Assembly (NCBI GenBank): GCA_021805985.1
Contig: JAJZDN010000001.1
Coordinates: forward strand, 1-64,000
DNA from: Planctomycetota bacterium
GTDB taxonomy: Bacteria; Planctomycetota; Phycisphaerae; WQYP01
Direction of reading: 5' to 3'
DNA: 64,000 bases
Shown: positions 8,603 through 34,641 of the stretch, piece by piece
How the letters are laid out: every line of letters starts with the position of its first letter
How positions within the stretch are numbered: position 1 is the stretch's first letter
Made by a program: the position numbers and the translations under genes
Notes under the pieces: model-generated
What the model was told of the DNA's origin: nothing
Seen by the model: the letters and a program-made list of their open reading frames with translations, nothing else
Database searches by the model: none

Positions 8603-9724
8603 GTGGCTGATCCGCAGACAACGTTGTTAAAAACCTGCTTTTATGATTTTCATATTCGCCAGGGTGCCAAAATGGTGGACTTTGGCGGATGGTCCATGCC
8701 ATTGTCCTATCGTGGCATTATCGCGGAGCATGAGCAAACGCGAAAAGCCGGCTCGGTCTTTGACGTATCGCACATGGGACGCCTGCATTTTACCGGCCCG
8801 GATGCTCTGCGCTTTTTGCAGCATATCTGCACGCGGGATTTATCCAAAGCGGTGGTGGGGCAGTCATTGTACAGCCTGATCTGCAAAACCGATGGCGGCG
8901 TGCTGGATGATGTGATTGTTTCCAGGTTTGATAAACACTGGTTGATGGTGTGCAACGCGGCCAATCGGCTTAAGCTTTTGGAATGGTTCAAAGCCAACAG
9001 CGCCGGCTTTAATTACCAGATTAAAGATGAAACCCTGCAAACTGCCATGATCGCCATTCAAGGCCCCAATGTGATAGCCTTACTGGATAATTTGCTGCCC
9101 GAGCCGGTGTCAACATTAAAGCGCTATCACTTCATGACACAAAATTATCTGATCGCAAAATTTACCGTCTTTCGCAGCGGGTACACCGGTGAAGACGGCG
9201 TGGAAATTATTTGCGGAACCACGATTGCGCAAATGGCCCTGAATATGCTTTTCAAGCAAGGGCGGGATATCAGCAGCGCTCCGTTGCAACCTGCGGGCTT
9301 AGCAGCGCGTGATACGCTGCGAATGGAGGCAGCCATGCCGCTGTATGGTCATGAACTGCAAGAGAATATCGATCCCATTTCCGCCGGGCTGCAATGGGCC
9401 GTGGCTGAGGACAAGCCGTTTATCGGCTCGGTGGCGCTGGCGGAAATCAGGCATCGCGGGCCGGAGCGGGTTCTAGTGGGTTTGGCCGTCGACGGCCCGC
9501 GCATCGCCCGGCAGGGGATGACCATTTGGGCCGGTGACAAGGAAGTTGGTACCGTCACCAGCGGCACCAGCAGCCCGACGCTGGGAAAAGTTATTGCTAT
9601 GGCGTATGTGCAATCCGTGTGTGCCGTCCCGGGCACCGCTTTAGAAATTGATCTTCGTGGAAATCGCGTCAACGCTACGGTGGTCAAATTGCCATTTTAT
9701 AAGCTGGCAAAAGCTGACAGTTGA
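8603..9724 (+). CDS. gcvT: Aminomethyltransferase (glycine cleavage system T protein)
   Basis: T protein of the glycine cleavage system; moves the aminomethyl group from lipoyl-H protein to tetrahydrofolate, releasing ammonia. Recognisable segments: GAKMVDFGGWSMPLSYRGI, FDVSHMGRLHFTGPDAL, SGYTGEDGVEI, LAARDTLRMEAAMPLYGHEL and the C-terminal barrel with SGTSSPTLGKVIAMAYV. GTG 8603 is chosen because AAGGAG lies 6-7 bp before it; the frame continues up to 8543 but that part is not conserved in look. That gives 373 residues, normal for the family. gcvH follows after 145 bp. No gcvP gene is in the window. Confidence 0.95.
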   Translation: MADPQTTLLKTCFYDFHIRQGAKMVDFGGWSMPLSYRGIIAEHEQTRKAGSVFDVSHMGRLHFTGPDALRFLQHICTRDLSKAVVGQSLYSLICKTDGGVLDDVIVSRFDKHWLMVCNAANRLKLLEWFKANSAGFNYQIKDETLQTAMIAIQGPNVIALLDNLLPEPVSTLKRYHFMTQNYLIAKFTVFRSGYTGEDGVEIICGTTIAQMALNMLFKQGRDISSAPLQPAGLAARDTLRMEAAMPLYGHELQENIDPISAGLQWAVAEDKPFIGSVALAEIRHRGPERVLVGLAVDGPRIARQGMTIWAGDKEVGTVTSGTSSPTLGKVIAMAYVQSVCAVPGTALEIDLRGNRVNATVVKLPFYKLAKADS

Positions 9725-17559: not shown

Positions 17560-20496
17560 TTACAGTGGGTGCCATGGAACTTCAATGGCATTCAAACGGA
17601 ATTTCCCGGTGGTTCCCGTATCATGTCGGATCATCACGGTATTGTTGCCTGCCGCTAATTGCAAATGCACTTGTACGCTGGCCCAAAGATGCGACTTTCG
17701 CGCTGGGGGAATTTTAAGTGTTTTGTAAAATCGCCCGTTAATATAAATGTTCGCTGATTGCGTATCTAATATGGACGGATTGCTGACTTGAAATACTGCA
17801 TGATATTTACCCATCCGTCTTCGGCGCAGATAAAATGTCGCCGCCATTGCGATCGTATCAAGTCCCGCGACCCATGAATCTCCCTTATCGTTATTGTTTA
17901 TGACCGGACGATCGTGGGGAGTTGGTCCGGAAAGCGACGCCTGATCTGCCCTGAATACCTCAGCACGCTTCGTGACATTCTTTGTCCCATTGAGGATCAC
18001 CTCTATCCGGGGTCCGCAGGGAATTTTGATCAGCGTCACAGGCCCCGCCACATCGATATCCGTGACCCAACTGACAACGGCCAGGGCGAGTTGCGTCCGT
18101 TGGTCCACTTCGTGAATTGGCGAACCATTTACGGTTACACTCGTGGCCCCGTTGCCGTGGACGCGTAGAATGAAATGTTTAACCGAAGACTGATACGTTC
18201 CCGAACTTGGGCTTACGGTTACGACGGTACGCTGCCCATCGGCTTTCGCCGTGATTTGCTGGCGGTGAAATTCGTTTTTTTCGTATCCGTAAGTTGTTCC
18301 ATCATCATCATAAAATAGCCCGGACGTGGCTGCCGATGTTGGGTGAATATCAATGTAGGCCATTTCGGGTGCGGCCGTGTGAATGGCCCGTACCGGCTCC
18401 ACGGCGGGAATAATAGCGCCTTGCTTGATAAAAAGTGGCCAGTCCATCCAGGAATCGGTGTTCAGGGTGTAATTAATCCATTGGCCGCCGGGATATCGAT
18501 CACCTCGGAAGTAATCCGTCCATTCGCCGGCGGGAAGGTAAATCCGGCGCGCGGTGGATTGATCCTTCTGATTTCCCAGCTTTTCCAGCACTGGCGCACA
18601 TAGAATCCAGTCGCCAAACATCCATTGATCCACCATGGATATGACGTTTGGGTCATGGGGATAATCGAAGGTTAATGGCCGCACGATGCCCACACCGGTT
18701 TGCACGCATGCAGCATGTTCCAGAGCGTAGGTATAGAAAAACCATGTGTAGCGTTGACGAATGGCTTGTTTGACCGTTTCACAGGCCTGATCCCCAAACA
18801 CCCACGGCTGCCGACGCTCGCCGTTCGTGCAATGGGTTCGTAGTGTGGGGCACACTGCGGTGAATTGAAACCAGCGCGTGTAGACTTCCGCCGTGGGGTG
18901 CCCGTTAAATCCGCCGGTATCCTGGGCCCATCGCATCTGCCCCATGGTGATGGTATTAATCATCGCAAGGGTCTGTTCCTGCATGACATGAAATCCCGTG
19001 GATATATCCCCCGACCATGTGGCGTATGCATAGCGCTGGGAGCCGAGATAAAAATTGCGATTAATGGACCATACTCGCTTATTGGGCCGAACCCCTCTTT
19101 GTCCGTCATACAGCGACTGCTGCATGTGCAAAAACTGAAAATTGCCGGTATTTCCCTGATCGGCTTCGTCGTTCCAGAATCCCGCAATTCCCTGCTCCAT
19201 GCATTGATGAACCCACGTGGCATGCCAGTACCATTGTCGGCATACGGGTTTGTAAAAATCCAGATCCAGGGACATTAACTCGGAAAAATAATCCGCGAAC
19301 GGTTTTTCCCCGGGCAGGAAAATACCGAGTTTTTTTGCTGATGCGCCCTGTGTGGTCATCGGCTCAAGTTTGCCTTTCACTGTACTGATGATAATCCGCG
19401 GTTTCATAATGCCGGTAATTTTGCACTCCAAATTCCGCGTCCAGTTAACCAGTGCATCCGGGTTTTCGTGGGGAAGCAAGGCCTGTGAATATTTAACCGG
19501 ATTCCATCGGAACTCGCCAAAATGGCTGGTGCCCCAGTCCTTCCAGTCAAAGTCAAGGGTGAAGTTATCAATCGGAATATCCCTGGCGCGGTAGGTTTCC
19601 AGATAGTGCCGCAGTAAATTTTGGTCCGTGCCCCATTGCGAGTTGGTAAATCCATAGGCCCACTTGGGAAACAGTGGCATTTTTCCTGAAGTCATGGCCA
19701 AACTTTGGAAGATGGTTTTCGGCGGTCCAACAAAGATGAAAACTGTCAGACTGTTGGGACGAAAATAGTTGCGGCCATAGTCTTCCGGTTTTGGATTGCC
19801 ATAATAAAAGCTGATTTCGTCATCATTAATGTGGAAATATCCACCGTCAGAGTCCACAAGAATGCCGTAGCCAGATGTGGTCCAGGCAAAGGGCGCCCCG
19901 CCGCCGCCCTCGGCCGAGGCTTCAACTTTGTAGGTTCCGTTTGGCACGCCTTGGCCATTTTTAAGCACCGGGACTTTGTGTTTGGTCCACTCGGCGGAAT
20001 TATGAATACCATAAAAATTCGCTTTTTTATCGCGGCCGAAAGCCACACCGGTGGCACCCTGATTTTGGGGATCGACCAGCATTCTTTGCTTTCCGGTTTG
20101 GCTTAACAGGATATTGCCGACGCTATCAAAAAGGGTAATTTGTGACGAGTCACGGTGGACCAGCAACTCAAATTCCGTTGTTTTTAAGCGAATTCTATGC
20201 GTGTCTGTTTCTATCGAAGCCTTTGGGTCACCTGGAAATGTTGCGCCGGGATCCAATACCGGTGTGTGCGGATCACGTAGCCCCTTGGCCAGCAGGTCCA
20301 GACGCAGAATACTGGACGACAACGCTTTAGCGTGCAATACATCCTCGCCTATGGATAGCTGGAAGGAATCTTCCCGGCGGTGAATCTTCCCCGGTTGGTT
20401 GGCCGGAGAAGCTGCCTGCAGTGATTCACTGCCGACAAGCGCAACTGTTAATGCGGCCGTTGAGGACGCCCGAAGAAAATCACGTCTGTTGTTCAT
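17560..20496 (-). CDS. GH31 alpha-glycosidase (alpha-xylosidase/alpha-glucosidase) with C-terminal carbohydrate-binding-like domain
   Basis: 978 residues. A twin-arginine signal (NNRRDFLRASS) starts it. The GH31 barrel spans about 255-640: FTLDFDWKDWG, the nucleophile in GFWNDEADQG (Asp443), the proton-donor motif ATWSGD (Asp497) and QDTGGF. Beta-sandwich domains follow (DDDGTTYGYE). The last ~140 residues form a jelly-roll module (SANIYINGRFYKTLKI, NNTVMIRHDTG) like CBM35/CBM6. GH31 includes alpha-xylosidases that strip xylose from xyloglucan; the GH74 and XylR neighbours favour that (inference). It is last in a three-gene operon, 15 bp after the GH3 gene. Confidence 0.92.
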   Translation of the reverse strand: MNNRRDFLRASSTAALTVALVGSESLQAASPANQPGKIHRREDSFQLSIGEDVLHAKALSSSILRLDLLAKGLRDPHTPVLDPGATFPGDPKASIETDTHRIRLKTTEFELLVHRDSSQITLFDSVGNILLSQTGKQRMLVDPQNQGATGVAFGRDKKANFYGIHNSAEWTKHKVPVLKNGQGVPNGTYKVEASAEGGGGAPFAWTTSGYGILVDSDGGYFHINDDEISFYYGNPKPEDYGRNYFRPNSLTVFIFVGPPKTIFQSLAMTSGKMPLFPKWAYGFTNSQWGTDQNLLRHYLETYRARDIPIDNFTLDFDWKDWGTSHFGEFRWNPVKYSQALLPHENPDALVNWTRNLECKITGIMKPRIIISTVKGKLEPMTTQGASAKKLGIFLPGEKPFADYFSELMSLDLDFYKPVCRQWYWHATWVHQCMEQGIAGFWNDEADQGNTGNFQFLHMQQSLYDGQRGVRPNKRVWSINRNFYLGSQRYAYATWSGDISTGFHVMQEQTLAMINTITMGQMRWAQDTGGFNGHPTAEVYTRWFQFTAVCPTLRTHCTNGERRQPWVFGDQACETVKQAIRQRYTWFFYTYALEHAACVQTGVGIVRPLTFDYPHDPNVISMVDQWMFGDWILCAPVLEKLGNQKDQSTARRIYLPAGEWTDYFRGDRYPGGQWINYTLNTDSWMDWPLFIKQGAIIPAVEPVRAIHTAAPEMAYIDIHPTSAATSGLFYDDDGTTYGYEKNEFHRQQITAKADGQRTVVTVSPSSGTYQSSVKHFILRVHGNGATSVTVNGSPIHEVDQRTQLALAVVSWVTDIDVAGPVTLIKIPCGPRIEVILNGTKNVTKRAEVFRADQASLSGPTPHDRPVINNNDKGDSWVAGLDTIAMAATFYLRRRRMGKYHAVFQVSNPSILDTQSANIYINGRFYKTLKIPPARKSHLWASVQVHLQLAAGNNTVMIRHDTGTTGKFRLNAIEVPWHPL

Positions 20497-20511: not shown

Positions 20512-22893
20512 CTAATGATGGCGCAGCGGGCCATGGTATGAAAGCGATGTTGCCACAGTGGTCACAGAACGCTTTCCGGTTCGTACAGGCGATGATGGGC
20601 GGGCCAAAGTGAAGTCCGCCGGTTGACCTGAAATGGAGTTCGAGGAAATCCAGATTTCAAAATGACTCGGCTCAACCAGCCATCTGCCTCCCGCAGTATA
20701 GTATCCAAAGTCATGGGCACCAAGGGCAAAGCTGACACTACGGCTTTGCCCCGGGGAAAGTTGCACGTGGCGGAATCCCTTCAACTCTCTGACCGGTCGG
20801 CACCCTGCGCTAAAGTACAGACCTCTGATATAGAGCTCAACGGTTGCAATGCCCGGTACATGACCGATATTTGTCACCCGGGCGCTGGCGATGACAGGCT
20901 TGGTGCCGGCTGACCGTATAACGTTCAGGTGGACCGATCCGATATGGAATTTTGTGTAAGATAAACCGTAGCCGAAGGGAAATTCCGCCTTCCGGGTTCC
21001 ATCAATATATTTTCCCAAGGTTGGGCGACCGGTGTTCAGGTGGTCGTAAAAGACCGGAATTTGCCCAATCGAACGCGGGAAGTCCATCGTCAGCCGGCCG
21101 CTGGGATCATATTTGCCCAAGAGGACCGCAGTAACAGCGGGGGCGGTCTGCGTGCCTAACTGCCAGCACTCAAGAACTGCCGCTGACGACCGTACCACGT
21201 GGGGAATTGTCAGTGGCCGTCCGTTAAATAGCAGTGTGACTACAGGTTTGCCGCTGGCCGCTACCATGTTGAACAATTTTTGCTCTTTCTTCGGCAGGCC
21301 AATCCGCTTTCGGCTGGTGTTTTCACCGGTCATGCTGGACGTTTCACCAACCGCCAACAGCACCAGATCAGCGCTCCTGGCTGCCGCTGCCGCTTGCCGA
21401 AATCCTTTTCCTGACATACCGGTTTTGACAATGGACCATGTAACGTTTCCTCCCAAGGCCTTGCGCAGGCACTGCGACAGGGAGGTCATGTGATGCACGC
21501 CGCCCAAGTCATGCCAACACCCCAAAAATTGGCTGCGCGTATTGACAAAAGGTCCAATGAGGGCAATATCCCGCGGTGGATGAAGCAGCGGCAGGATATT
21601 ATGTGAATTTTTGAGAAGCACGCATGAACGTTCCGCCGCTTGGAAAGCCAGTTGCAGCGATGCGGGTTTAAGAAATGCGTGTCTCCAGCGTGTCATGCTG
21701 AAGTACGGATGTTCAAACAGTCCGCTTGCAAATTTGACAGCCAGCACCCGACGCACCGCAGCATTGACTTCTGCAATCGATACTTTGCCTTCGCGAACCT
21801 GTCTTGCCAAGGTTGTATATGTATGACTGAACATCTCCATATCCACGCCGGCAAATAAAGCTCTTCGGGCGGCGTCCGCGGGAGTGCGTGCGTAGCCCCA
21901 GTTGACCAGTTGGCCCACGCCTCCCCAGTCGCTGACGACCAATCCCCGAAAGCCCAGTTGCGTGCGAAGAACATGATGCAGCGTGTAGCGATCCGCCGTG
22001 GCTGGAATGCCTCCGATCGAATTAAATGCACTCATGACCGTGGCGGCGCCGGCGTTAATTCCAGCGCGGAAGGCGGGGATATGATAATTCCACAATGTAA
22101 ATCGCGTAAGTTCCGCCTGATTGTAATCTCTTCCTCCCTGAACTGAACCATATCCGATATAATGCTTCAAACACGATATCACATGATCACGCGTCCCTAG
22201 TGCGGTGCCCTGAAATCCGCGCACTGCGGCAGCGGTAAATAATGAATCAAGGTAGGGGTCTTCTCCGAAGCCTTCTGCCACGCGACCCCAGCGCGGGTCG
22301 TGTGAAATATTAACCATAGGAGCAAAAACCCAGTCGATTCCCGCCGCAGTGGCCTCCCGTGCGGCTACGGTCTGGCATTGTTGTACCATACTTGGAGACC
22401 AGGAGCAGGACATCGCCAATGGGACCGGAAAAATTGTTTTGCACCCGTGAACAACATCCTCACCGAACAGCAGCGGGATTCCCAGCCGCGTATCTGATAC
22501 CGCCATGCGTTGGGCGGCGTTCTCTCGAAGCAGCCTGTACTTCCAAAATGCCGCTCCGGTCAAATGAGCCGGCGCGGGAACGCCCAGAAAAGATGATACA
22601 TCGCCGGATTTGATGGCTGGTGCGAGGGCTGGAAGATGCTGTGTTCCCCAGTACACTTGCATTAATTGTCCCACCTTCTGGCGCAGGGTCATACGCGAAA
22701 GTAACTCAGAGACTCTTTGGCCGATGGGCTTCGCGGCGTTTAACCAGGGGCGTTGGCCTAGGATGGGAAATATTTTCCCATCCGCGTGGGTCAAAGCGGG
22801 CGAGAGCATAATTGAACCAGCAGCCAGGGCCGCGGGCGCTAGTGACCGGCGGCAATTCTGTAAAAACCAGACTATCTTTTTTTTCATAATCAC
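20512..22893 (-). CDS. Glycoside hydrolase family 3 beta-glucosidase-like enzyme
   Basis: 793 residues: signal peptide with a hydrophobic core (ALAAGSIMLSPALTHA), then the GH3 barrel with NISHDPRWGRVAEGFGEDPYL and the nucleophile in VVSDWGG (Asp322). The second domain contains the acid/base loop region VGETSSMTGENTSRKRIGLP, and the end carries the fibronectin-III-like FPFGYGLSYTKF. Its GTG start at 22893 overlaps the upstream TGA by 4 bp (GTGA), with AGAGGG 5 bp before it, so translation is probably coupled; ATG 22887 is the alternative. Likely removes glucose from oligosaccharides exposed by the GH31 enzyme. Confidence 0.93.
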   Translation of the reverse strand: MIMKKKIVWFLQNCRRSLAPAALAAGSIMLSPALTHADGKIFPILGQRPWLNAAKPIGQRVSELLSRMTLRQKVGQLMQVYWGTQHLPALAPAIKSGDVSSFLGVPAPAHLTGAAFWKYRLLRENAAQRMAVSDTRLGIPLLFGEDVVHGCKTIFPVPLAMSCSWSPSMVQQCQTVAAREATAAGIDWVFAPMVNISHDPRWGRVAEGFGEDPYLDSLFTAAAVRGFQGTALGTRDHVISCLKHYIGYGSVQGGRDYNQAELTRFTLWNYHIPAFRAGINAGAATVMSAFNSIGGIPATADRYTLHHVLRTQLGFRGLVVSDWGGVGQLVNWGYARTPADAARRALFAGVDMEMFSHTYTTLARQVREGKVSIAEVNAAVRRVLAVKFASGLFEHPYFSMTRWRHAFLKPASLQLAFQAAERSCVLLKNSHNILPLLHPPRDIALIGPFVNTRSQFLGCWHDLGGVHHMTSLSQCLRKALGGNVTWSIVKTGMSGKGFRQAAAAARSADLVLLAVGETSSMTGENTSRKRIGLPKKEQKLFNMVAASGKPVVTLLFNGRPLTIPHVVRSSAAVLECWQLGTQTAPAVTAVLLGKYDPSGRLTMDFPRSIGQIPVFYDHLNTGRPTLGKYIDGTRKAEFPFGYGLSYTKFHIGSVHLNVIRSAGTKPVIASARVTNIGHVPGIATVELYIRGLYFSAGCRPVRELKGFRHVQLSPGQSRSVSFALGAHDFGYYTAGGRWLVEPSHFEIWISSNSISGQPADFTLARPSSPVRTGKRSVTTVATSLSYHGPLRHH

Positions 22894-24539
22894 TGTATCC
22901 CTCTAATTCGTCGCCGCAGTTGCCATACTCCCAGCATTCCCACACTCAACAGGGCAATCGTCGCGGGTTCTGGAGTCACGGTAACATCGACAAAGGATGC
23001 GGTGGAGATGCTGCTGGTATCGTGAGAACTCACGGCCAGCCCGGCAAGGAAGCTTGAATCTGTGAAGTTTAGTGCGGCCACCGAGCCTATTTCGATCCAG
23101 TCTAAAGCACCGCCTTGCGGTGCCGCGGTTGAATAATATCCGGTGAACGTGCTTCCCGTTTTCACCAGACGCATCCAGATTGTGCCACTTACCGCGACAC
23201 TTCCGATTTCGATAGCGTTGGCACCGGCGGTCGTACGAGCCTGCATTTGCACACCATTGCCGGGGGTTAATTCCATCGCTACAAACTGTGCGTCTGCCGC
23301 CGCCGAATCGCGGAACATGACGCCAGCCTTCGCCCAGGGATCCGTGTTCTGTTGCGAAGCAACCTGTGCCGTGATGGCACCGTTGCCCGTCAGGGGACGG
23401 GAAGCGAAATTGAATTGATCGGAAGAATTCCATATATCTGAGCCACTTCCAAAGAGCGTATAGACTCCCTTGGAATAACTGCCCGCGCCCGGAATCGTTG
23501 GAGAGCCTATAGTCGCATCTGACCATGCCCCCGGCAATGCTGCACGCCCCGTGCCCAGTGTATAGTTTAATACCTGCGACGCCCAATTGTAATTTTGGGG
23601 GGAATCATTAAGTGTGCCATCACTGTTATGTAAGGTATCGCTGTCCGCATCGCTCCAGTTCCAGGCAATGGCACCGACATTTTTTGCCGTAGTCGCCTGC
23701 AGGAATGGAGAAACGTTATAACCGCCAGCTGAGGTAGACCATCCGTATTCTCCCACGATCATTTTAACACCGGTGTTCTGAACACTGGCGAAGCTGCTCT
23801 CCATTCCCGCTGTTCCGGTTGAAAACCACGAATTGTAGGCGTGAAGATCAAACATCAGATTGTGCTGGGGATCATATTGCACCAAGGCCGAACCCTCATT
23901 GACCACAGGGGTCACACTTCCGGCTTCCTGGCCCCCGGGAATTACAATTTTTCCGGTAAAACCGGTTCCATTGCGAATGCTGTTTACCATGGTTTGCATA
24001 TCCGAAAGCCATTGGCTGCTTGCCGTTGGCGTATTCCATGCGTACGGCTCGTTCCACACCTCCAGCCAGACATTGGACTGCCCCGCGAACTGCCGGGCCA
24101 TGGCACCAAGCTGGCTGTTATAGGAATTCCAATACGACGTCTGTGACGGCGTCACGCCCAGAATCTGCGAGCCGGCCCATGTAAAAGGACAAAGAATGGT
24201 GGTATCGCCCGCGGCAGAGTTCTGATTTACAATGCTTCGCAGGCCATGCAGATAACTTCCATCAGCCTGGACGGTATTGGTTCCCATGGGAACTACGTCA
24301 AAATTTGGAATATCTTCCCGAATAATATTGATTCCCCACGCGGACATTCCTGCAGCGCTGTTGCCGCCGTAAACATCCCACGCATTGGCTCCCCGGTATC
24401 CCCCTGTGCTGGTTGATGCGCCGGGGATGCTAGCGGTCGTGGCGTGGGCTATAGCGGGCACTGTCAGCACCACGCATGAAGTAATTACAGCTGCTCTGAG
24501 TATAGACAAGGTCTCTATCTGAAGCTTACTGGATGTCAT
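22890..24539 (-). CDS. GH5-like cellulase-fold hydrolase with LamG/DUF1349-like domain and PEP-CTERM anchor
   Basis: First gene of the minus-strand operon. After a signal peptide (hydrophobic 14-32) residues ~45-330 form a clan GH-A barrel: acid/base Glu164 in EVWNEPYAW and nucleophile Glu264 in MIVGEYGWS. Residues ~345-515 look like a concanavalin-type domain (NTDPWAKAGVMFRDS, FTGYYSTAAPQG). The C-terminus TPEPATIALLSVGMLGVW plus an Arg cluster is a PEP-CTERM sorting signal, so the enzyme should be processed by an exosortase and kept at the surface. The exosortase is not in the window. GH5 is likely but a related GH-A family cannot be excluded. Codon 1 is ATG 24539. Confidence 0.8.
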   Translation of the reverse strand: MTSSKLQIETLSILRAAVITSCVVLTVPAIAHATTASIPGASTSTGGYRGANAWDVYGGNSAAGMSAWGINIIREDIPNFDVVPMGTNTVQADGSYLHGLRSIVNQNSAAGDTTILCPFTWAGSQILGVTPSQTSYWNSYNSQLGAMARQFAGQSNVWLEVWNEPYAWNTPTASSQWLSDMQTMVNSIRNGTGFTGKIVIPGGQEAGSVTPVVNEGSALVQYDPQHNLMFDLHAYNSWFSTGTAGMESSFASVQNTGVKMIVGEYGWSTSAGGYNVSPFLQATTAKNVGAIAWNWSDADSDTLHNSDGTLNDSPQNYNWASQVLNYTLGTGRAALPGAWSDATIGSPTIPGAGSYSKGVYTLFGSGSDIWNSSDQFNFASRPLTGNGAITAQVASQQNTDPWAKAGVMFRDSAAADAQFVAMELTPGNGVQMQARTTAGANAIEIGSVAVSGTIWMRLVKTGSTFTGYYSTAAPQGGALDWIEIGSVAALNFTDSSFLAGLAVSSHDTSSISTASFVDVTVTPEPATIALLSVGMLGVWQLRRRIRGIQ

Positions 24540-24830: not shown

Positions 24831-25585
24831 TTAATCTGTGATACGCTTGCGGCGTTTCAACAGCAATAACCCGCTGCCTGCGACTGCCAGCATCGCCAAT
24901 GTCGCCGGCTCCGGCACGGCGGCAGAGGTGAGATTGAAGTTATCGTACACTTCCGTGTAATCGTAACTGGCCTGATGTTGTACCACGCGTACCCCCACAT
25001 AGCTTGTTCCAGTGGGAACCGTAGCGCTATCATTGAAGGTTTCAAATGGATTGCCGACCGCAGCTCCCTGGCCTGAATTCAGGTTGGGAAGGTAAAAAGC
25101 TCCCGAGGAAGAAATCGGAGTGTAATTGGCCGCCGTATTGTTGCCGTAAAAGTCCAGATAAACCTGCGACGAATCATAGACATTCCCGGACAGCGCCCAC
25201 TGGAAACTCAGATTCAGCGCTTCGCCGGGCGTTACCGCCGCACGATCTACTGCGGAAGTCTGGAAAGTCCCGGTCATAATCTCCAGAGCGTTCCCGGTAC
25301 CGCCTCCGAGCTGGGCTACGGTCTGGCCGTTGTTGTCGGTACTTCCCGTCGGTCCGATGACGCCGTAATACGCATATTGATTGGCACCCGGATTAACGCT
25401 CAGTTGCCATCCCGGAACGTTTGTGTTGTCGGACGCGCCGTTCTGGTAGCAAATGTTGACCCTGCGTTGAAGCCGCCGTTGGTGAGCATGTTCGCCTGCG
25501 CCACCGGAACGCTTAACAGTCCAACCGTCATAACGCTGGAAGCCAGCAGTCCGATTGTATAACGTGAATAAGATTTGTTTTTCAT
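24831..25585 (-). pseudogene. PEP-CTERM surface protein gene with a frameshift
   Basis: The N-terminal frame (ATG 25585) gives a signal peptide ending SVPVAQA and then NMLTNGGFNAG, a start typical of PEP-CTERM beta-sandwich proteins. In the +1-shifted frame the text continues VNICYQNGASDNTNVPGW...GNALEIMTGTFQTSAVDR and ends with VPEPATLAMLAVAGSGLLL plus KRRKR. The shift falls around 25450-25465. Rejoined, it would be about 250 residues, a normal size. Either a recent inactivating indel or a sequencing error. A good terminator follows it. No catalytic motif; likely a structural or carbohydrate-binding surface protein. Confidence 0.75.
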
Positions 25586-25795: not shown

Positions 25796-26698
25796 CTATT
25801 GGACCAGCGGAATATGCGGCCAAAAATCGCGACGCGTAATGGTTCCCATTGGCCGCGATTCAACATGCCCGTCCCCGAAGACCAAATTGCAATCCATGTT
25901 ATTGTTATGGCGATATCTGAATCCGTGGAATGTCATCGGGCCGCTGTGATAGAAAATGTGAGCATACGTGTCATCGACATTGTAGGGCGCGATCGCACTG
26001 GAACTGTAGGTCCATGGATAGGGTGAGTAGGATATAGAGTTGTTGGGGCCATCCGCGACCATGTAATCCTGCCAGGATTGTACAATGGCCCAGTTATCCA
26101 GCTGCATTTCAATTGGATCGGCCTGCCAGTTGGCATCGTATGCCAGCTGTGCATCCCAGGCGATGGCAGTCTGGTTGATGTTCTTAACCGTTGAAAACCT
26201 GACCGGCGGCGTGTATTGAGACCACCATGGATTAAACGTTTGGCCTGACCAATACCCAAAATCACCATCTTCGCCACTGAAGATGCGAGGATTTCCAGTG
26301 TATTGGTCGGTCCCTGCCGGAGCTAATGGTGCGCCGGGGTCCATAAATACGTTGCTATCAGTCACTTGGCCGATGTTGGTCCCGGTCATGGTCGGCTGCA
26401 CCCCCATTTCGATGCTCAGTTGTTGCGTCCAATCCCGAGCGACCCAGTTGATGGTATTGGCGTAGCCGAATCCAAATGGGACGAAATCCTTGTTTTCCTC
26501 CGTATAGGTGACCAGCGTCAGGCCGATTTGCCGGAGGTTGGATTCACAGGCCACGGAATTGGCCAAATCCTTCGCCCTTGCCAGCGCCGGCAATAACAGG
26601 GCGATCAGCAATGCGATAATCGAGATTACCACCAGTAATTCGATTAACGTAAAACCTCGCCCCGTCCCAATGCGTGAGATGACTTGCTTGCCAGACAT
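25796..26698 (-). CDS. Prepilin-type N-terminal methylation protein, H-X-DG (DUF1559-like) family
   Basis: 300 residues. The N-terminus [32 protein letters not shown] (first 20 residues of that run are diagnostic) is a type IV pilin/pseudopilin leader, cut before Phe by a prepilin peptidase. The C-terminal region has [20 protein letters not shown], a variant of the H-X9-DG motif of Planctomycete and Lentisphaera pseudopilin-like proteins (11 residues lie between His and Asp here). ATG 26698 has GGAGG 7 bp upstream. Its putative promoter carries candidate XylR site 1, tying a surface pseudopilin to polysaccharide use (inference). Confidence 0.9.
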
Positions 26699-26789
26699 AA
26701 TAAAGCCTCCAAAAAGGACCATCTAATACTATCTCACCGGATGCTTCTTGCGGCAGAACGTGGTTGGCCGCATGCATCTAACGATCTAA

Positions 26790-26795
26790 ACTATA
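26790..26795 (-). promoter_or_regulatory. -10 hexamer for the prepilin gene
   Basis: TATAGT on the minus strand, exactly 17 bp from the edge of operator site 1. The -35 position matches poorly, as expected for an activator-dependent promoter. Confidence 0.45.
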
Positions 26796-26812
26796 CACGG
26801 GCTGGTTTGATC

Positions 26813-26847
26813 TTTGGCGTCAAAAATGTTGTTGCTTTGCGCATAGC
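26813..26847 (-). promoter_or_regulatory. Candidate XylR operator, site 1
   Basis: This 35-bp segment is identical at 28 of 35 positions to 30958-30992. The shared core is CAAAAATG-N-TGTTG (20-nt limit respected) with flanking TNGCG half-sites 22 bp apart, a spacing typical of AraC-family proteins. It lies 17 bp upstream of a -10 hexamer. Binding by the adjacent regulator is inference. Confidence 0.6.
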
Positions 26848-27020
26848 TGCAAAGCACGTTTAAAAAGGACCGTGACGTGGAAAAGCCGCGGTATTCAGCC
26901 ATAAAGGCGTTGGTATTGACCCCTCAAAATCGGGCGATCAGTGCTGATTTTAAGTCCGGAAAGTCATGCCGCATTGTCTCTTGAGGCGATAAACACGCTG
27001 GGATTCTGTATGATTGCTGG

Positions 27021-28274
27021 ATGGAGTTGTCCCCTTTGGAGGCCATGGTGGCGCAGAATAAACGCATAGCAATCGTCGTGGAGTTGGCCGTTGGATATCG
27101 CGAAGCCGTGGTTCGCGGACTCTGGCGTTTTCTTCAGACTCGACCTCTATGGGAACACCAGGGGTGTGAATTGCATGTAGGTGAGCTTAACGCACTGCGG
27201 AACTGGAAGCCCGACGGGATCGTAGCGGGTTTACACGATATAAAACTCGGCCGCGCGCTTAAAAGACTCAATGCGCCCATTATTGATGTATATAACTGCG
27301 TGGAATTGCCCGGCGTTGTGCAGGTTGGAATCGATGATGCAGCGGTGGGGGACATGGCCGCTAAGTACCTCTTGTCGCTGGGGCTTAAAAATCTTGCGTT
27401 GGTGGGTGATTGCTCAACGCGTTATGCCCTGGAGCGCCGTGACGCATTCCTGAAAATTCTGCGAGCTGAGGATTTGGAATGCTACCAATGGGATCCCACC
27501 CAGAAACTTCGTCCGCCGGTTGAAAATCTGCGGCGCGGGGGGGCCTCGGCCGTCCCACCGGGATCGCATACCTTTTCAGCAACTGCGTGGTCATCGAGAT
27601 TTCGCAGACAATGGGGCGACGCAGTTTCACAATGGATTACGGACCTGCCCAAGCCGGCCGGGATTTTTGCTCTCAACGATGACTGGGCAACGATGATTGT
27701 CGATCAGTGTAATCACCAGAGTATTGCGGTTCCGGAGCAGGTGGCCATATTAGGAGTGGATAATGCTGAGTTGCTCTGCCAGATGGGCCGACCTCCGCTT
27801 TCAAGCATTGAAACTCCTGCCGAGAAGGTCGGCTGGGAAGCGGGCGTTGCCCTTGAGAAACTCATGGAGGGAAAGCCCGTTTCAAGCCGTCAACTTCTCC
27901 AACCGGTGCGGGTGGTTGAAAGACAGTCCACCAATATTCTGGCGATTGACGACCCGGATGTGACCTCTGCGATTCGCTTTATCCAAGCCAATGTCCATCG
28001 CGGCATCGGTGTGCGGGAAGTATTAATGACAGTTCCTTCCCGAAGGCGGACTTTGGAAATGAGCTTTCGAAAATCAGTGGGACGCAGCATTCTCGATGAG
28101 ATCCAGCGGCTGCGTGTGGAGCGGGCAAAAATGTTGCTTTCATCCACTGATTTAAAACTTTCTATAATAGCTCAGCGTAGCGGCTTCCGCAGCGCCAGCC
28201 GCCTGTGTCGAATGTTTCATCAAGTCAGCGGAGAAACTCCTGCCCATTTCAGACGGCGCGGTGAATTGGCGTAA
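27021..28274 (+). CDS. xylR: XylR-type transcription regulator (LacI-like sensor plus AraC HTH)
   Basis: 417 residues. Residues ~10-290 form a periplasmic-binding-protein-like sensor (KRIAIVVELAVGYREAVVRG; GVVQVGIDDAAVGDMAAKYL; PEQVAILGVDNAELLCQMG; PLSSIETPAEKVGWEAG) as in XylR of E. coli. The last ~105 residues hold two AraC helix-turn-helices: RGIGVREVLMTVPSRRRTLE and SIIAQRSGFRSASRLCRMFHQVSGETPAHFRRR. XylR activates xylose genes when xylose binds. ATG 27021 is the longest; ATG 27045 has GGAGG only 2 bp before it. It lies in the middle of the hydrolase genes and is the likely local activator. Ligand (xylose or another sugar) not proved. Confidence 0.9.
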   Translation: MELSPLEAMVAQNKRIAIVVELAVGYREAVVRGLWRFLQTRPLWEHQGCELHVGELNALRNWKPDGIVAGLHDIKLGRALKRLNAPIIDVYNCVELPGVVQVGIDDAAVGDMAAKYLLSLGLKNLALVGDCSTRYALERRDAFLKILRAEDLECYQWDPTQKLRPPVENLRRGGASAVPPGSHTFSATAWSSRFRRQWGDAVSQWITDLPKPAGIFALNDDWATMIVDQCNHQSIAVPEQVAILGVDNAELLCQMGRPPLSSIETPAEKVGWEAGVALEKLMEGKPVSSRQLLQPVRVVERQSTNILAIDDPDVTSAIRFIQANVHRGIGVREVLMTVPSRRRTLEMSFRKSVGRSILDEIQRLRVERAKMLLSSTDLKLSIIAQRSGFRSASRLCRMFHQVSGETPAHFRRRGELA

Positions 28275-28286
28275 TGGGATGTCGTC

Positions 28287-29219
28287 TCATCGCCGGGCTG
28301 AGGCTTTGCCAACATGCCGGTCCGGAGACTTTTGAGCCGGCGGATGCGGACTGTGTTGCCCCGACGCTTGGGCCGCTTGCCTCTGATAAACCCGGATGTA
28401 TCGAATTTCATATTTCGCAGGCAGGGCTTTATTATTAATCGGCCCGGCCCAGTTTCCTCCCATCGCCAGATTTAAAATTAAATACATCCTTTTGCGAAAC
28501 GGATTGTCTGCGCCGGTGCCGGCAGCGGAAACATTAAAAGTGAAGTATTTAGCTCCATCAATATAAAATGTGATGTGCTTTGGCGACCAGTCCATGCAAT
28601 AGGTGTGAAATTTCTTCGCTGCTGAGCTATGGAGTGTGAATAGTCGGGCCTGAGATTGGTGGGTATGGTGACCACCTTCCCAATGAACAGTGGTGTGAAT
28701 CACACGTGGTTCTCGGCCGAGCCATTCCATGACATCAATCTCGCCGCATTCCGGCCAACCCACTTTAGAAATATCCGTCCCAAGCAGCCAGAAGGCGGGC
28801 CACATTCCGGCTCCGGCGGGGAGCTTGGCACGCATTTCAAAGCGGCCATATAGCCAACTCTCCTTGCCTAAGGTCGTGAGGCTCGCGGACGTGTACTGCG
28901 CCCATTTCCGGGCGTAACGCCAATTTTTTGCTCCGCGACGATACTGCCTGTTGGCAACGCGCTGCTTGCGAGCCTCAATGACCAGCATGCCCCCACGAAC
29001 GACCGCGTTGCCTGGCTGATAATATTGCGGCTCTTTATTACGCACAAACCCCCGTTCGTCGCTCCACTTTGCGGGATCAGGATGTCCCGGCTTGGCAAAG
29101 TTATCCTGCCAAACCAGATGCCATTTGGCTGCTGTCGCTGCCCCAACATAGTTGCGGTGGGATGGTCCTGTGATAACCAGGGATGCGATAAGAAAAATGA
29201 ACTGCCATTTAATTTGCAT
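28287..29219 (-). CDS. GH16 family beta-glucanase-like enzyme
   Basis: 310 residues with a signal peptide (FIFLIASLVITGPSHR). Complete GH16 jelly roll: AKWHLVWQDNF, YGRFEMRAKLPAGAGMWPAFWLLG and the catalytic ECGEIDVMEWLG, where Glu160 is nucleophile, Asp162 assists and Glu165 is acid/base. Later DWSPKHITFYIDGAKYF and LILNLAMGGNWAG are family landmarks. GH16 members cut beta-1,3/1,4-glucans, or xyloglucan in the plant XTH-like subfamilies. It follows the DUF4038 gene by 69 bp and is probably co-transcribed. The C-terminal ~25 residues are basic and Pro-rich. Confidence 0.93.
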   Translation of the reverse strand: MQIKWQFIFLIASLVITGPSHRNYVGAATAAKWHLVWQDNFAKPGHPDPAKWSDERGFVRNKEPQYYQPGNAVVRGGMLVIEARKQRVANRQYRRGAKNWRYARKWAQYTSASLTTLGKESWLYGRFEMRAKLPAGAGMWPAFWLLGTDISKVGWPECGEIDVMEWLGREPRVIHTTVHWEGGHHTHQSQARLFTLHSSAAKKFHTYCMDWSPKHITFYIDGAKYFTFNVSAAGTGADNPFRKRMYLILNLAMGGNWAGPINNKALPAKYEIRYIRVYQRQAAQASGQHSPHPPAQKSPDRHVGKASARR

Positions 29220-29288
29220 TTTGCCGCCGTAGCTTCAGGTCTACATTATCTCAAGTTTTATTGTACAGTTAAAATACCCGCCCTGTAA

Positions 29289-30734
29289 TTAATCCTGTTT
29301 GCTATTGAGCACCAGGACCCAGTCGCGGGACCCGGCATGGTTTTTATGTGCGGGAGAAAACCGCATTTTTCCGCGATTTATCAGGGGTAAACGGGAAATC
29401 GCGGTATAGGTGCCGCTCGTCGGGTCAAACCACCGCGCGTGTGCGGGCCTAGAGAGCTTTGCCATGTTGACCTCAATAGCCCGCGGTGTGGGCAGATAGG
29501 CCACCATGAGTGTTCTTTCGGCAGTAAACGCTGCCGTGCAATAATCGGCTTGGCTGACACGTGTTTTGGCATTTCCATAAGTTCCAAGTCCCGCAGTTAC
29601 CATATCGTGTGATTGATCCGGTATCAGAGCGTACCATGGAATGGAACTAAAAAAATGTTTCCATATCTTGATCTGTGCGGCACCTGGCGTATTAAGGTGG
29701 GATTGCCAGTCGGGGGAAAAGCCCCAGACGTAATGGTTGCCGTAAATCTGTCCGCAGCCGCCGCAAAGCATTGTCCAATACGCCTGTCGCCGCAGCACCG
29801 CCGGCGTGCCATAATCCGGCGGAAGACCAACATTTTCCATCTCATAGTGCGCCTCGAGCAGGCCCGTGGGCATGGGCGGCTGGTGATTATAATTCTGTAG
29901 CATCTGCTGATACGTGGCACCGTACGTGTAGGCCCCGTTAAGCGAAATGAGATTTTTCCACGTGGGATCTTGAAGCGATGGGGTGCATAATAATTCAACG
30001 GTTTCCAGGCTGCTGGGATCGGCCGCGTGGATTGCTTCTGCGACGGTCTGAACGACCGCGTCGTTGCGGTGTTTCGCCCAGCTTCCGAAATCATTGCCGT
30101 TGAGCCATAGAATATTTTTAAATTTACTATACCGTTGGCCGAGAAACTTTCCGTACTTCAGGCACTTTTCGGGGCCGTTGTTTCGCAAGGTCTTCAGCCA
30201 CTGGCCGGTTTCAATGGGATCCAAAAAAACTAAAAAGCCCATTTTGTCTGCGATCCCAAGGATTTCATCGGCCCGGGAAAAATACTCTTCATTCGGTCTG
30301 GCAAGATCATAGTGCGCTAAATCTGTGCCGCCAGATAGATAGCCGGTAAACGGCCGTAGACCGTCGAAGGTGCTGCCGTCTTTATTACAACTCGGGAAGT
30401 AAGGCCCCGCGCACAGGAGGTTGATCCACATGGAGTTAAATCCATAGGTCAGCCGATTTGTAAAGTACTGGGATGCCTGCTGAACGTTCAGTTTTACGAC
30501 CATCGCCTGGGGCGCATCGCCGGCGATTAAAAAAGGCGCTTTGTGCTGATCCATCAGATAACGCCGGTTGCCGCTAATATGAAGCGGGAACGATGTCGGA
30601 GGTACTACGGCGTCGTCTTTTCCAATCGCCAATGCAGGCTTTCGAAGCACCCTGGGCGATGCCATTAGTGACACTGCCATGGAGCCGGCGGCTCTCATGA
30701 GATTCCTTCGGTTAAGAAAGGTGGGTTGGTTCAT
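29289..30734 (-). CDS. DUF4038/apiosidase-like (beta/alpha)8 glycosidase, Tat-exported
   Basis: 481 residues. Tat-type signal LNRRNLMRAAGSMAVSLMA. The body matches DUF4038 proteins, which include the apiosidase GH140: RYLMDQHKAPFLIAGDAPQ, YFTNRLTYGFNSMWINLL, GFLVFLDPIETGQ and KNILWLNGNDFGSW, with a later EAHYEMEN. The C-terminal ~90 residues resemble the putative collagen-binding domain often attached (RTLMVAYLPTPRAIEVNMAKL, WFDPTSGTYT). Substrate is unknown; the neighbours suggest a plant cell-wall side chain. Promoter elements with candidate operator 2 lie 200 bp upstream. Confidence 0.85.
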   Translation of the reverse strand: MNQPTFLNRRNLMRAAGSMAVSLMASPRVLRKPALAIGKDDAVVPPTSFPLHISGNRRYLMDQHKAPFLIAGDAPQAMVVKLNVQQASQYFTNRLTYGFNSMWINLLCAGPYFPSCNKDGSTFDGLRPFTGYLSGGTDLAHYDLARPNEEYFSRADEILGIADKMGFLVFLDPIETGQWLKTLRNNGPEKCLKYGKFLGQRYSKFKNILWLNGNDFGSWAKHRNDAVVQTVAEAIHAADPSSLETVELLCTPSLQDPTWKNLISLNGAYTYGATYQQMLQNYNHQPPMPTGLLEAHYEMENVGLPPDYGTPAVLRRQAYWTMLCGGCGQIYGNHYVWGFSPDWQSHLNTPGAAQIKIWKHFFSSIPWYALIPDQSHDMVTAGLGTYGNAKTRVSQADYCTAAFTAERTLMVAYLPTPRAIEVNMAKLSRPAHARWFDPTSGTYTAISRLPLINRGKMRFSPAHKNHAGSRDWVLVLNSKQD

Positions 30735-30934
30735 TAAACACTCCTATGTGTGATTCGGCCATTTTATTGAGGTCGCATAGCAACCGCTATTCCTGCCTGA
30801 TTCACCGGCGCCTTCTTTGCGACCTTCTGTAATATCTTATATCGCCTGCACCTTGCTTACCTCTGCTGCAAACAGCCGGCGAGCCATTCATGCAGCCTCA
30901 TAAAACGACGCTTTCACAGCCGATCGAAAACGCA

Positions 30935-30940
30935 ATCATA
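30935..30940 (-). promoter_or_regulatory. -10 hexamer for the DUF4038-GH16 pair
   Basis: TATGAT on the minus strand, 17 bp from the edge of operator site 2, the same geometry as at the prepilin promoter. Confidence 0.45.
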
Positions 30941-30957
30941 CTCGGCGGCTCTTGACC

Positions 30958-30992
30958 TTTTGCGACAAAAATGATGTTGTATTGCGCAACGC
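30958..30992 (-). promoter_or_regulatory. Candidate XylR operator, site 2
   Basis: Second copy of the 35-bp motif (28/35 matches to 26813-26847). Direct half-sites TTGCG occur 22 bp apart. Located 200 bp upstream of the DUF4038 start and 250 bp upstream of the CE2-like start, so it could serve both directions, though the 17-bp spacing to TATGAT favours the minus strand. Confidence 0.6.
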
Positions 30993-31242
30993 GCGATGGG
31001 TGGCCAGAGGGGAAAGAGAGATTTGCTAATGGTGCTCGGGGAATAAATCCGAGAAGTTATGAAGGCTTTGCATAAGAATCGCTTCATTGGGGGTGGCATC
31101 GATTGATGGGTTCCTCAATATATGCCACGGCATGAAGCGCGTGGCTGCGCAAAGTGACATCGCCCGCGACGCCAAATGACAATGCAGTAGCGATATAGTA
31201 ATAGCGTAAATGGTTCGATGATCGCACACTGGAGAACAGGAA

Positions 31243-32361
31243 ATGGCGAAAACTTTCGCGGCGGTTTATACCAGCGGATTAGCTCTTGCAGCGGTTATTT
31301 ACGGTTCGCTTTTCCTGGGAGGTGCTCCCGGGGCCGCTATCGCGGCCACGAAGTCCTTGCCGGTTAAAATTTCCGCATACAACAGGGATATACTTTATGT
31401 GGGGCGCTTTGATGATTCGCAGCCTGCCGGGCCTCGTTGTGCCTGGTCCGCCAGTAGTATTACATTGCGGTTCGAGGGCACAGCGGCCGAAGCGCGTATG
31501 TCAGGAGGCTCCAATGATCGCTGGCAGATTATTGTGGATGGACACGCGACAAAAAAACTGACCATGGCGGGTAAGCCGGCGTTATTCGCGCTGGCGTCGG
31601 GCTTACATCCAGGCGTTCATACTATTACACTGTTCAAATTGGGTGAGCCGATCTGGGGCACAACTCAAATCATGTCTTTTAGATTAGCTCCAGACAGCAA
31701 ACTGCTGCCAATGCGGGGAGATCCTCGACATTTCGAGGTTATCGGCGATTCCATAAGCGCCGGATACGGCGATCAGGCACCCAACCAGACCTATCACTTT
31801 GCAGCTAAAACGGAAAACGCGTATCTGACCTACGGGGCTGTGGCCGCTCGAGATCTGAAAGCCGAATATGTTTGCATCGCCTGGTCTGGAAAGTGCCTGT
31901 GGCCAAAAAACACAGTTCCCAAAATCTATGGCAGAGTGCTTCCGCAAGACCGCACGAGTCACTGGAATTACGCGTGGAAGCCCCAGGCTATCCTGATCAA
32001 CCTCGGTACCAATGATTTTGCGGGGGGCGATCCGGCAGAACGTGGCTGGGTTGCTGCCTACGTGGCGTTTATCAGGCGGCTGCGAAAACACGATCCGGGA
32101 GTCTCGATCTTTTGTGCTCTAAGTCCCATGCTTTCAAACTCCTGGTCTGCCAGTAAAAATGCCCGTTCCATGTGCCGTCAATACATTATGGCGGTAGTTG
32201 GAAGGTGCCATCGACTTGGCTATGGCAAGGTCTATTTTGTGGATTTTCCGATGCAAACGGGTAAGTACGGATTCGGAGCAGATTGGCATCCAAGTGTTGG
32301 TGAACATCGCTACATGGCCACGATCGTTGAGCGTGCACTGCGTGAAAAACTGGGATGGTAA
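31243..32361 (+). CDS. SGNH/GDSL carbohydrate esterase, CE2-like acetyl-xylan esterase
   Basis: 372 residues with a signal peptide (hydrophobic 12-36). Residues ~45-150 form an N-terminal jelly roll (YVGRFDDS, LRFEGTAAEARM). The SGNH domain then starts FEVIGDSISAGYG with Ser170, continues LINLGTNDFAGG (Gly/Asn oxyanion residues near 255-257) and ends with ADWHPS, His349. This two-domain layout is that of CE2 esterases that deacetylate xylan or glucomannan. AGGAA precedes ATG 31243. GH74 starts 10 bp downstream, so they form an operon that removes acetyl groups and then cuts the backbone (inference). Confidence 0.88.
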   Translation: MAKTFAAVYTSGLALAAVIYGSLFLGGAPGAAIAATKSLPVKISAYNRDILYVGRFDDSQPAGPRCAWSASSITLRFEGTAAEARMSGGSNDRWQIIVDGHATKKLTMAGKPALFALASGLHPGVHTITLFKLGEPIWGTTQIMSFRLAPDSKLLPMRGDPRHFEVIGDSISAGYGDQAPNQTYHFAAKTENAYLTYGAVAARDLKAEYVCIAWSGKCLWPKNTVPKIYGRVLPQDRTSHWNYAWKPQAILINLGTNDFAGGDPAERGWVAAYVAFIRRLRKHDPGVSIFCALSPMLSNSWSASKNARSMCRQYIMAVVGRCHRLGYGKVYFVDFPMQTGKYGFGADWHPSVGEHRYMATIVERALREKLGW

Positions 32362-32370
32362 TGATAGACC

Positions 32371-34641
32371 ATGAGTTGGAGTAATACCCCAATGATTCAT
32401 AACCACGATCAACAAACCGGAAAGCGCAACTCCTCCATTACCCGCAGGAGGTTCTGCACAACCGTTGCGGCCTGCGTTGCCTTGACATCCGCGCAACGTA
32501 AAATCCAAGCTGCCTCCGGTACAGGAGGCATTTCCCAGGTTCACTACCGATGGCTCAATGTGGCAATGGGCGGCGGGGGAGCGATTCCAGGCATTGTGCT
32601 GCATCCCAAGGTGCCCGGGCTGGCTTATATTCATACGGACGTAGGCGGATGCTATCGGTGGGATTCCGCGGATAAGCGATGGATACCGCTTTTAGATCGC
32701 ATTCCATTTACCCAGTGGAATCTTTACGGCGTTGACAGCATTGCCGTCGATCCCAATGATGTAACCGGAGATACTGTATATATCTCGACTGGTAAGTATG
32801 CTGATTCCTGGGCTTCCCCGGCAGGAATGCTGATGAAGTCTACCGATCGCGGCGAAACGTGGACCCGAACCACGCTGTCCCCCACCGGCGGAAGCAACCA
32901 ATCACAGGGTTGCGGTGAGCGACTTGCTGTTGATCCGGCCAATGGGCAGCATGTGGTATATGCGTCGCAACTCAATGGACTGTTCTCAAGTTTTGATGCG
33001 GCTAAGACATGGAACCCGGTGCGTGCGGCACCGTCTGGATGGTCGTCTGAGAGTGCTTCCCAAAAAAAACGCGGACACGGCCTGGCCTTTGTTGTGTTCG
33101 ATCCTTCCTCGGGTATTACCGGCACACCTGCCCGGACCCGGGTAATGTATATCGGTGCCACCGGACAGGGAGTCTATAGAAGCGGCGATGGCGGAAAAAG
33201 CTGGCATTTGCTTTTGGGGGGGCCAGATGGGCCCCGAAAGGGGGTTATTGGAGCCGATGGCGTTCTGGTGGTATCCCATCGTCGTGGAGTGGCAAAATTT
33301 GCCGCAGGCCGATGGACGAACATCACGCCGACAACGCCGACAACGCCGAAAAAGGGGACGTGCTGCGCCGTAGCGATTGATCCATCGGATTCCAATCACA
33401 TTGTAGCAACGCTGGGATTGATGAATCGCATACCGGTATTTCGCACAACCAATGGTGGAAAAAGCTGGCTGGATATTTCCGGTACGCGCCATGAGACGGT
33501 TACCTGGTGGGCGGCATGGCAATGGTTTTCCAGCCCTTTCAGCCTGGCTTTTGACCCGCATCGCAAGCATTGTGTTTGGGCCACGGATTGGTACGGAACG
33601 TATTGTGCTGACGATGTTACCCGGCCCGAACCCGTCTGGACCAATTTTGTCGCCGGCATTGAAGAGCTTTGTATCATCGGTGCACTGGCCGCACCACCCG
33701 GGGGCCGATGCCGTTTATACAGCGGTGCCGCCGATGAAGGCGGAGGCGATCACATTTCCCTGACAAAGCCTCCACGACGATCGCTCTGGGTTAAAGGACT
33801 GCCGGCCGGCCTGGACCGCACGGGAATTGCCGTTGCTCCTGATGATTCCAATTTTGTCGTATGCGTCGGCACCATCAACTGGAGTTCACCCGGTACAGGT
33901 GCATATTCTGTTAATGGTGGAAATAGTTGGAACACGTTTGCCAAGCTTCCCTACAAAGGAATCAAGGGCGGCCGGGTAGTCCTCACCGGCAATCACCGGC
34001 GGATTCTCTGGGTCCCGCAGGAAGGGCCACCGTATTACAGCGATGACTTGGGCCAAAAGTGGAATAAGGTAAAATGCCGCGAAAGCCTGGCGGGCAGTTC
34101 GCATGGTGACAATATTTTTGTTTATGATCAGCCGGTGGCTGTCGATGCCGCTGACGCAAATCGTGTCTATATTCTCAAGGGGTCCAAACTCCTTGTGAGT
34201 ACCGATGCGGGAGAACATTTTTCCGTCGCTTTCACCAAAGCACCCGCTGACTGGAATCATAAGGTGCTTACCTCCGGCCATCCCGGCGATGTCTGGGTAT
34301 CAGGCGGCACGCAGGGCTTGTTCCGTTCGCGTAACGGCGGTCGGTCTTTTGCCCGGGTCAGCGGTATTCAGGCGGCTTATATGTTCTGCTTCGGCAAAGC
34401 ACCCGCCGGAACAAATTTTCCCGCCCTGTTCGTTCAGGGTGAAGTGGAAGGCACCGCCGGATATTTTCGATCTGATGATCAGGCCCGAACCTGGGTGCGC
34501 ATTGACATGCCGTTACAAAAAGTGGGCGATGCTCCCAACACCATGACCGGCGATTGGAGAGTTTTTGGCGGTGTTTTCGTCGGTACGACGGGCCGCGGAA
34601 TATTCTACGGCTGCCCCGCAAATAGTGACCAGAACATTTGA
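32371..34641 (+). CDS. GH74 endo-xyloglucanase-like protein, Tat-exported
   Basis: 756 residues. A Tat motif (SITRRRFCTTVAACV) precedes two seven-bladed beta-propellers, about residues 55-750. Family landmarks are WLNVAMGGGGAIPGIVLHP, HTDVGGCYRWD (Asp90 matches a catalytic Asp of GH74) and repeated sialidase-like D-x-G-x-T/S-W boxes such as STDRGETWTR and TTNGGKSWLD. GH74 enzymes cut the beta-1,4-glucan backbone of xyloglucan. A (ACAACGCCG)3 tract at about 33329-33350 encodes TTPTTP in a linker. ATG 32392, with GGAG about 10 bp upstream, is an alternative start. Confidence 0.92.
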   Translation: MSWSNTPMIHNHDQQTGKRNSSITRRRFCTTVAACVALTSAQRKIQAASGTGGISQVHYRWLNVAMGGGGAIPGIVLHPKVPGLAYIHTDVGGCYRWDSADKRWIPLLDRIPFTQWNLYGVDSIAVDPNDVTGDTVYISTGKYADSWASPAGMLMKSTDRGETWTRTTLSPTGGSNQSQGCGERLAVDPANGQHVVYASQLNGLFSSFDAAKTWNPVRAAPSGWSSESASQKKRGHGLAFVVFDPSSGITGTPARTRVMYIGATGQGVYRSGDGGKSWHLLLGGPDGPRKGVIGADGVLVVSHRRGVAKFAAGRWTNITPTTPTTPKKGTCCAVAIDPSDSNHIVATLGLMNRIPVFRTTNGGKSWLDISGTRHETVTWWAAWQWFSSPFSLAFDPHRKHCVWATDWYGTYCADDVTRPEPVWTNFVAGIEELCIIGALAAPPGGRCRLYSGAADEGGGDHISLTKPPRRSLWVKGLPAGLDRTGIAVAPDDSNFVVCVGTINWSSPGTGAYSVNGGNSWNTFAKLPYKGIKGGRVVLTGNHRRILWVPQEGPPYYSDDLGQKWNKVKCRESLAGSSHGDNIFVYDQPVAVDAADANRVYILKGSKLLVSTDAGEHFSVAFTKAPADWNHKVLTSGHPGDVWVSGGTQGLFRSRNGGRSFARVSGIQAAYMFCFGKAPAGTNFPALFVQGEVEGTAGYFRSDDQARTWVRIDMPLQKVGDAPNTMTGDWRVFGGVFVGTTGRGIFYGCPANSDQNI

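Follow-up and report, generated by a model that had tools for sequence, protein, structure and literature searches.

Class II activator promoters of the AraC family have two half-sites in tandem, separated by about two turns of the helix, with the proximal half-site over the -35 position and a fixed distance to the -10 box. E. coli XylR (PDB 4fe4, 4fe7) unites a sensor of the LacI type with an AraC-type HTH in a single chain. Both E. coli XylR and the Vibrio protein XylRA are activators; XylRA, for which binding was demonstrated by EMSA and xylose is the effector, belongs to a beta-1,3-xylan utilisation locus, and its sites, which have two direct repeats, are described as similar to those of XylR (PMC12125979).

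The window analyzed here is a stretch of 64,000 nucleotides from a member of the Planctomycetota. Three operators located in it (operators 1 to 3, Table 1) very probably make up a local, pathway-specific regulon in which a XylR-type activator drives three transcription units in this uncultured Phycisphaerales bacterium. The regulator shares with E. coli XylR the fusion of sensor and HTH, but the operators are CGC-centred (TGCGCAA, CGCMAAA) rather than AT-rich (operator details partly from PMC12125979), and the targets are secreted polysaccharide hydrolases instead of xylose isomerase and transport. As at the Vibrio XylRA locus, a single XylR-type activator is accompanied by several operators inside one polysaccharide locus, with binding established by EMSA there and predicted from sequence here; phylum, operator sequence and substrate all differ. 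Literature searches revealed no XylR-type operator in Planctomycetota. As far as this analysis shows, the operator is previously unreported, while a regulon of the XylR-type kind is already known.

Table 1. Operators, -10 hexamers and genes of the locus (positions in the window)
Feature	Position	Strand	Details
Operator 1 (35 bp)	26813..26847	-	TGCGCAA ... CGCCAAA on minus strand, half-sites 22 bp apart; zero-mismatch genome match; direct sequence reading TTTGGCGTCAAAAATGTTGTTGCTTTGCGCATAGC
-10 hexamer TATAGT	26790..26795	-	17 bp from operator 1
Operator 2 (35 bp)	30958..30992	-	TGCGCAA ... CGCAAAA on minus strand; direct sequence reading TTTTGCGACAAAAATGATGTTGTATTGCGCAACGC
-10 hexamer TATGAT	30935..30940	-	17 bp from operator 2
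Operator 3	31142..31176	+	TGCGCAAAG ... GACGCCAAA, facing CE2 gene; zero-mismatch genome match 31146-31199
-10 hexamer TATAGT	31194..31199	+	exactly 17 bp from operator 3
XylR-type regulator, proposed binder of operators 1-3	27021..28274	+	LacI/GalR-type sensor and C-terminal AraC HTH
GH31	17560..20496	-	Pfam 1.8e-55; PDB 5x7o 5.8e-173
GH3	20512..22893	-	Pfam 2.2e-65
GH5 (cellulase family) with PEP-CTERM	22890..24539	-	Pfam 2.1e-19
PEP-CTERM protein	24831..25585	-	reading frame shifts near 25449 compared with G026
Prepilin-like, first gene of unit 1	25796..26722	-	N_methyl 1.1e-5
GH16, laminarinase-type	28287..29219	-	Pfam 5.8e-31; PDB GH16 and laminarinase entries from 1.4e-50
Apiosidase-like (DUF4038) with collagen_bind_2, first gene of unit 2	29289..30734	-	Pfam 1.1e-48
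CE2-type esterase, first gene of unit 3	31243..32361	+	CE2_N 1.5e-22; Lipase_GDSL_2 5.1e-16
GH74, xyloglucanase-like	32371..34641	+	PDB 2cn2 5.7e-90

The XylR-type regulator

The regulator gene lies between operators 1 and 2, as the sequence-only reading had proposed. Its product has the architecture that defines the XylR type, in which a ligand-binding domain of the LacI/GalR type is joined to an AraC-type HTH at the C-terminus: Pfam placed Peripla_BP_3 at residues 115-304 (9.4e-27) and HTH_18 at residues 342-413 (7.5e-16), and a PBP1_XylR match at residues 15-90 was weak and under the cut-off. The nearest solved relative in the PDB was E. coli XylR (4fe7, 7.1e-43). This protein and its orthologue in G026, another MAG of the genus, share some 23 inserted residues (around 160-190) that are absent from the other aligned homologues.

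Operators and promoters

Re-reading of the window sequence confirmed that operators 1 and 2 are identical at 28/35 positions, that their TNGCG half-sites are 22 bp apart and that each is followed on the minus strand, 17 bp away, by the hexamer listed in Table 1. The best ungapped match over 35 bp was 28-29 for the real pair and 20-23 for pairs of simulated intergenic regions matched to the real ones in length and dinucleotide content (12 trials). A degenerate consensus of the two operators matched those two places only in the window, with zero matches expected at up to three mismatches (100 shuffles).

Operator 3 came to light as a conserved block when the locus was aligned with contig C335 of G026. 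It repeats the architecture a third time, now on the plus strand, beyond the coordinates considered in the first reading and ahead of the CE2-GH74 pair. The plus strand from 31142 to 31199 reads TGGCTGCGCAAAGTGACATCGCCCGCGACGCCAAA-N17-TATAGT. Both half-sites, their 22-bp distance and the 17-bp spacing to the -10 box are kept, while the core CAAAAATG, which operators 1 and 2 have in common beyond the half-sites, is absent; the core is thus not the determinant. The core CAAAAATGNTGTTG was itself tried as a determinant and rejected: among its 20 genome matches, none besides operators 1 and 2 extended to the full motif.

The tandem half-sites are 22 bp, or about two helical turns, apart in all three operators and in their orthologues. 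The promoter-proximal half-site overlaps the -35 position and is separated by the 17-bp spacer from TATAGT, TATGAT and TATAGT, respectively. The -10 boxes are good ones. The hexamer found at the -35 position, GCCAAA or GCAAAA, is far from TTGACA, and a scan with the sigma-70 consensus called no promoter at the three -10 boxes. The class II-like layout suggested in the sequence-only reading was borne out in its tandem repeat of 22 bp, its proximal half-site over the -35 position and its fixed -10 distance, a likeness to AraC-family promoters at the level of sequence. A LacI/GalR-type sensor domain, together with an operator that extends over the -35 position, would also fit a reading of the same regulator as a repressor which covers the -35 region and is released by a sugar. 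We regard this as unlikely, because a hexamer matching TTGACA so poorly at 17 bp suits an activator-dependent promoter and because activation is the mode of action of the relatives that have been characterised, E. coli XylR and Vibrio XylRA (PMC12125979).

Activation, the preferred reading, would proceed as follows. We infer that the XylR-type protein binds each operator as head-to-tail TGCGCAA and CGCMAAA half-sites, 22 bp apart. Once bound, it would recruit RNA polymerase in the class II manner of the AraC family, standing in for the poor -35 element. The presumptive inducer is a breakdown sugar, whose presence would be detected via the LacI-fold sensor domain. The regulator would then turn on three units, namely prepilin-PEP-CTERM-GH5-GH3-GH31, apiosidase-like-GH16 and CE2-GH74.

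Genes of the three units

Based on Pfam, seven of the nine genes served belong to CAZyme families. The extent of unit 1 as an operon is predicted from gene order and strand; the unit behind operator 1 probably takes in the PEP-CTERM, GH5, GH3 and GH31 genes as well, and the link from prepilin to GH31 has to bridge intergenic stretches of roughly 210 and 290 nt. The prepilin-like gene probably has its true start at the ATG of position 26698, since in G026 the frame upstream of it is interrupted by a 2-nt difference in length. Compared with the intact 252-aa version in G026, the PEP-CTERM gene is split between two frames, through an assembly error or because the gene is disrupted.

The GH74 protein is xyloglucanase-like, the GH31 protein is nearest to a GH31 enzyme of the alpha-glucosidase type and the GH16 protein is nearest to laminarinases. 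From these affinities the target is likely to be a mixed glucan/xyloglucan, and the three units together would likely form a glucan/xyloglucan-type depolymerisation set.

Distribution of the operator in the genome and family

The pattern TGCGCAA-N17-CGCMAAA-N17-TANNNT had exactly three perfect matches in the bacterium's own 4.68-Mb assembly (G000, 95.5% complete). All three are operators of the window locus, within a 4.4-kb stretch that includes the regulator gene, each at a promoter position and at the same distance to the -10 box. The next-best genome matches carried two mismatches. When up to three mismatches were allowed over the whole assembly, the gapped pattern gave 41 matches and its reversed control 34, which is near the control level. 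Many unrelated genome matches, the outcome that the sequence-only reading had named as counting against its proposal, did not arise, as every perfect match in the genome belongs to this locus.

A slightly stricter pattern, with at most one mismatch, was used to search 28 family genomes. Eight matches were identified, three each in G000 and G026 and two in G022, all of them at orthologous promoters in these three species; there were no matches outside these genomes at that threshold, and the reversed control gave zero. In G022 the apiosidase-like, CE2 and GH74 genes surround the two sites on the contig. The sequence that is invariant over the eight sites of the three species is TGCGCAA.....CA........G.CGC.AAA...CAA...........TAT..T.

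Conservation between species

Over 17 kb the locus is 87% identical at the nucleotide level between G000 and G026. Operators 1, 2 and 3 (35-bp sites) are 94, 91 and 91% identical, respectively, and their -10 hexamers 100%, whereas the rest of the noncoding DNA ranges over 60-86% and, within it, the 17-bp spacers over 71-82% (71% for that between operator 1 and its -10 box). The contrast is visible between adjacent stretches: operator 1 is 94% identical and the xylR leader beside it 60%, and operator 2 is 91% identical and its leader 70.5%. In operator 3 the half-sites are 100% and the middle 85% identical. The three operators are the best-conserved 35-bp noncoding stretches of the locus. Operators 2 and 3 recur in G022, with TATCAT and TATAGT as the respective -10 hexamers. 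No conserved autoregulatory site facing the regulator gene was found in its leader, the least conserved stretch (60%) between G000 and G026.

The core common to operators 1 and 2 could suggest that the operators arose by chance or through copying of a short mobile repeat. This is extremely improbable, given an identity between operators 1 and 2 well above the chance range, a genome-wide total of three copies, each the same distance from a -10 box, the retention of the sites in other species while their flanks drift, and an operator 3 that has half-sites and spacing alone in common with the others.

Paralogous regulators

The bacterium's own 4.7-Mb genome contains about 18 matches to XylR-type homologues, and two relatives contain 22-23. 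These numbers amount to a large expansion of LacI/AraC fusion regulators, represented in the own genome on, e.g., G000:C71, C33, C13, C190 and C75. The closest paralogs of the regulator, designated group B, have a DNA-binding domain about 68% identical to its own. They are present in G000, G026, G023 (two copies) and G024, and in G022, where the upstream part is lacking.

A matrix trained only on operators 1-3 of the window was run on the group B loci and on twelve control stretches, the latter being loci chosen as partial pattern matches and hence a strict control. In all five complete group B loci (four species) the best match fell within the regulator's divergent promoter, with scores of 23.3-26.1. 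The maxima in 11/12 control stretches were 12.3-17.5; the twelfth, at 20.7, contains the match C71:3322-3375, itself beside another XylR paralog. The group B site reads TTGCGC[GA]AAAnGCACAT..TTTGCCGCGTTA..(TATAGT), with a spacing of 22 bp. Genes for a prepilin-like and a PEP-CTERM protein are again among those adjoining it, and the group B regulator of G026 also has GH31, GH74-like and GH28 genes beside it.

These results bear on the question of whether some other regulator, encoded elsewhere in the genome, binds operators 1-3, the XylR-type gene being a mere neighbour. Binding by the XylR-type protein is a prediction, and the numerous XylR-type proteins of the genome could cross-talk. Such an arrangement is nevertheless very unlikely, as the pattern is confined to the window locus in the genome, the family matches occur only in species with the orthologous locus genes, and a related operator stands beside the genes of those paralogs whose DNA-binding domains are closest. 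The sequence-only reading had proposed one regulator for the prepilin gene and the DUF4038-GH16 pair. The regulon is supported by the uniqueness and conservation of the sites and by the paralog operator; the proposal was incomplete in that it missed the CE2-GH74 pair with operator 3 and, probably, the further genes of unit 1 (PEP-CTERM, GH5, GH3 and GH31).

The GH31, GH74 and GH28 genes lie beside the group B regulator in G026 (L038) and G023 and not beside it in the own genome (L037). Before the GH31-GH74-GH28 genes of the G026 group B locus there is a 21-bp direct repeat, AGCGCAAAAG twice (L038, about 9165-9210). The repeat is also found in G022 (L042, about 3092-3150) and faces away from the GH31-GH74-GH28 genes. 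It may represent a second operator of group B.

Matches to the general grammar near other XylR paralogs showed no overall enrichment (4.7 vs 4.5 per 10 kb). The link of XylR paralogs to operators therefore rests on groups A and B, and an operator code for the whole family is only a possibility. Two operator-like tandem repeats (L127:1751 and 6450) lie in a locus that combines sulfatase and transporter genes with a XylR-type gene of its own; one of the repeats is 137 bp before the start of the transporter gene, which adjoins the sulfatase gene. The operator candidates near this locus, L047 and L043/L044 are leads only.

Implications

Published work on the control of polysaccharide degradation in Planctomycetota appears to be scarce. 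The locus described here offers a compact regulon, with one regulator, three operators and three transcription units in three species, together with a paralog that has a related operator. It would place secreted prepilin-like and PEP-CTERM proteins under one switch with the hydrolases, and would allow targets to be predicted in uncultured genomes. It is conceivable, if on balance doubtful, that the many XylR paralogs of the genus are private switches, each with its own CGC-centred tandem operators in a shared grammar (21-22 bp, fixed -10 distance), and that these operators diverge together with the DNA-binding domain. If that were true, a recognition code would be readable from the XylR paralogs.
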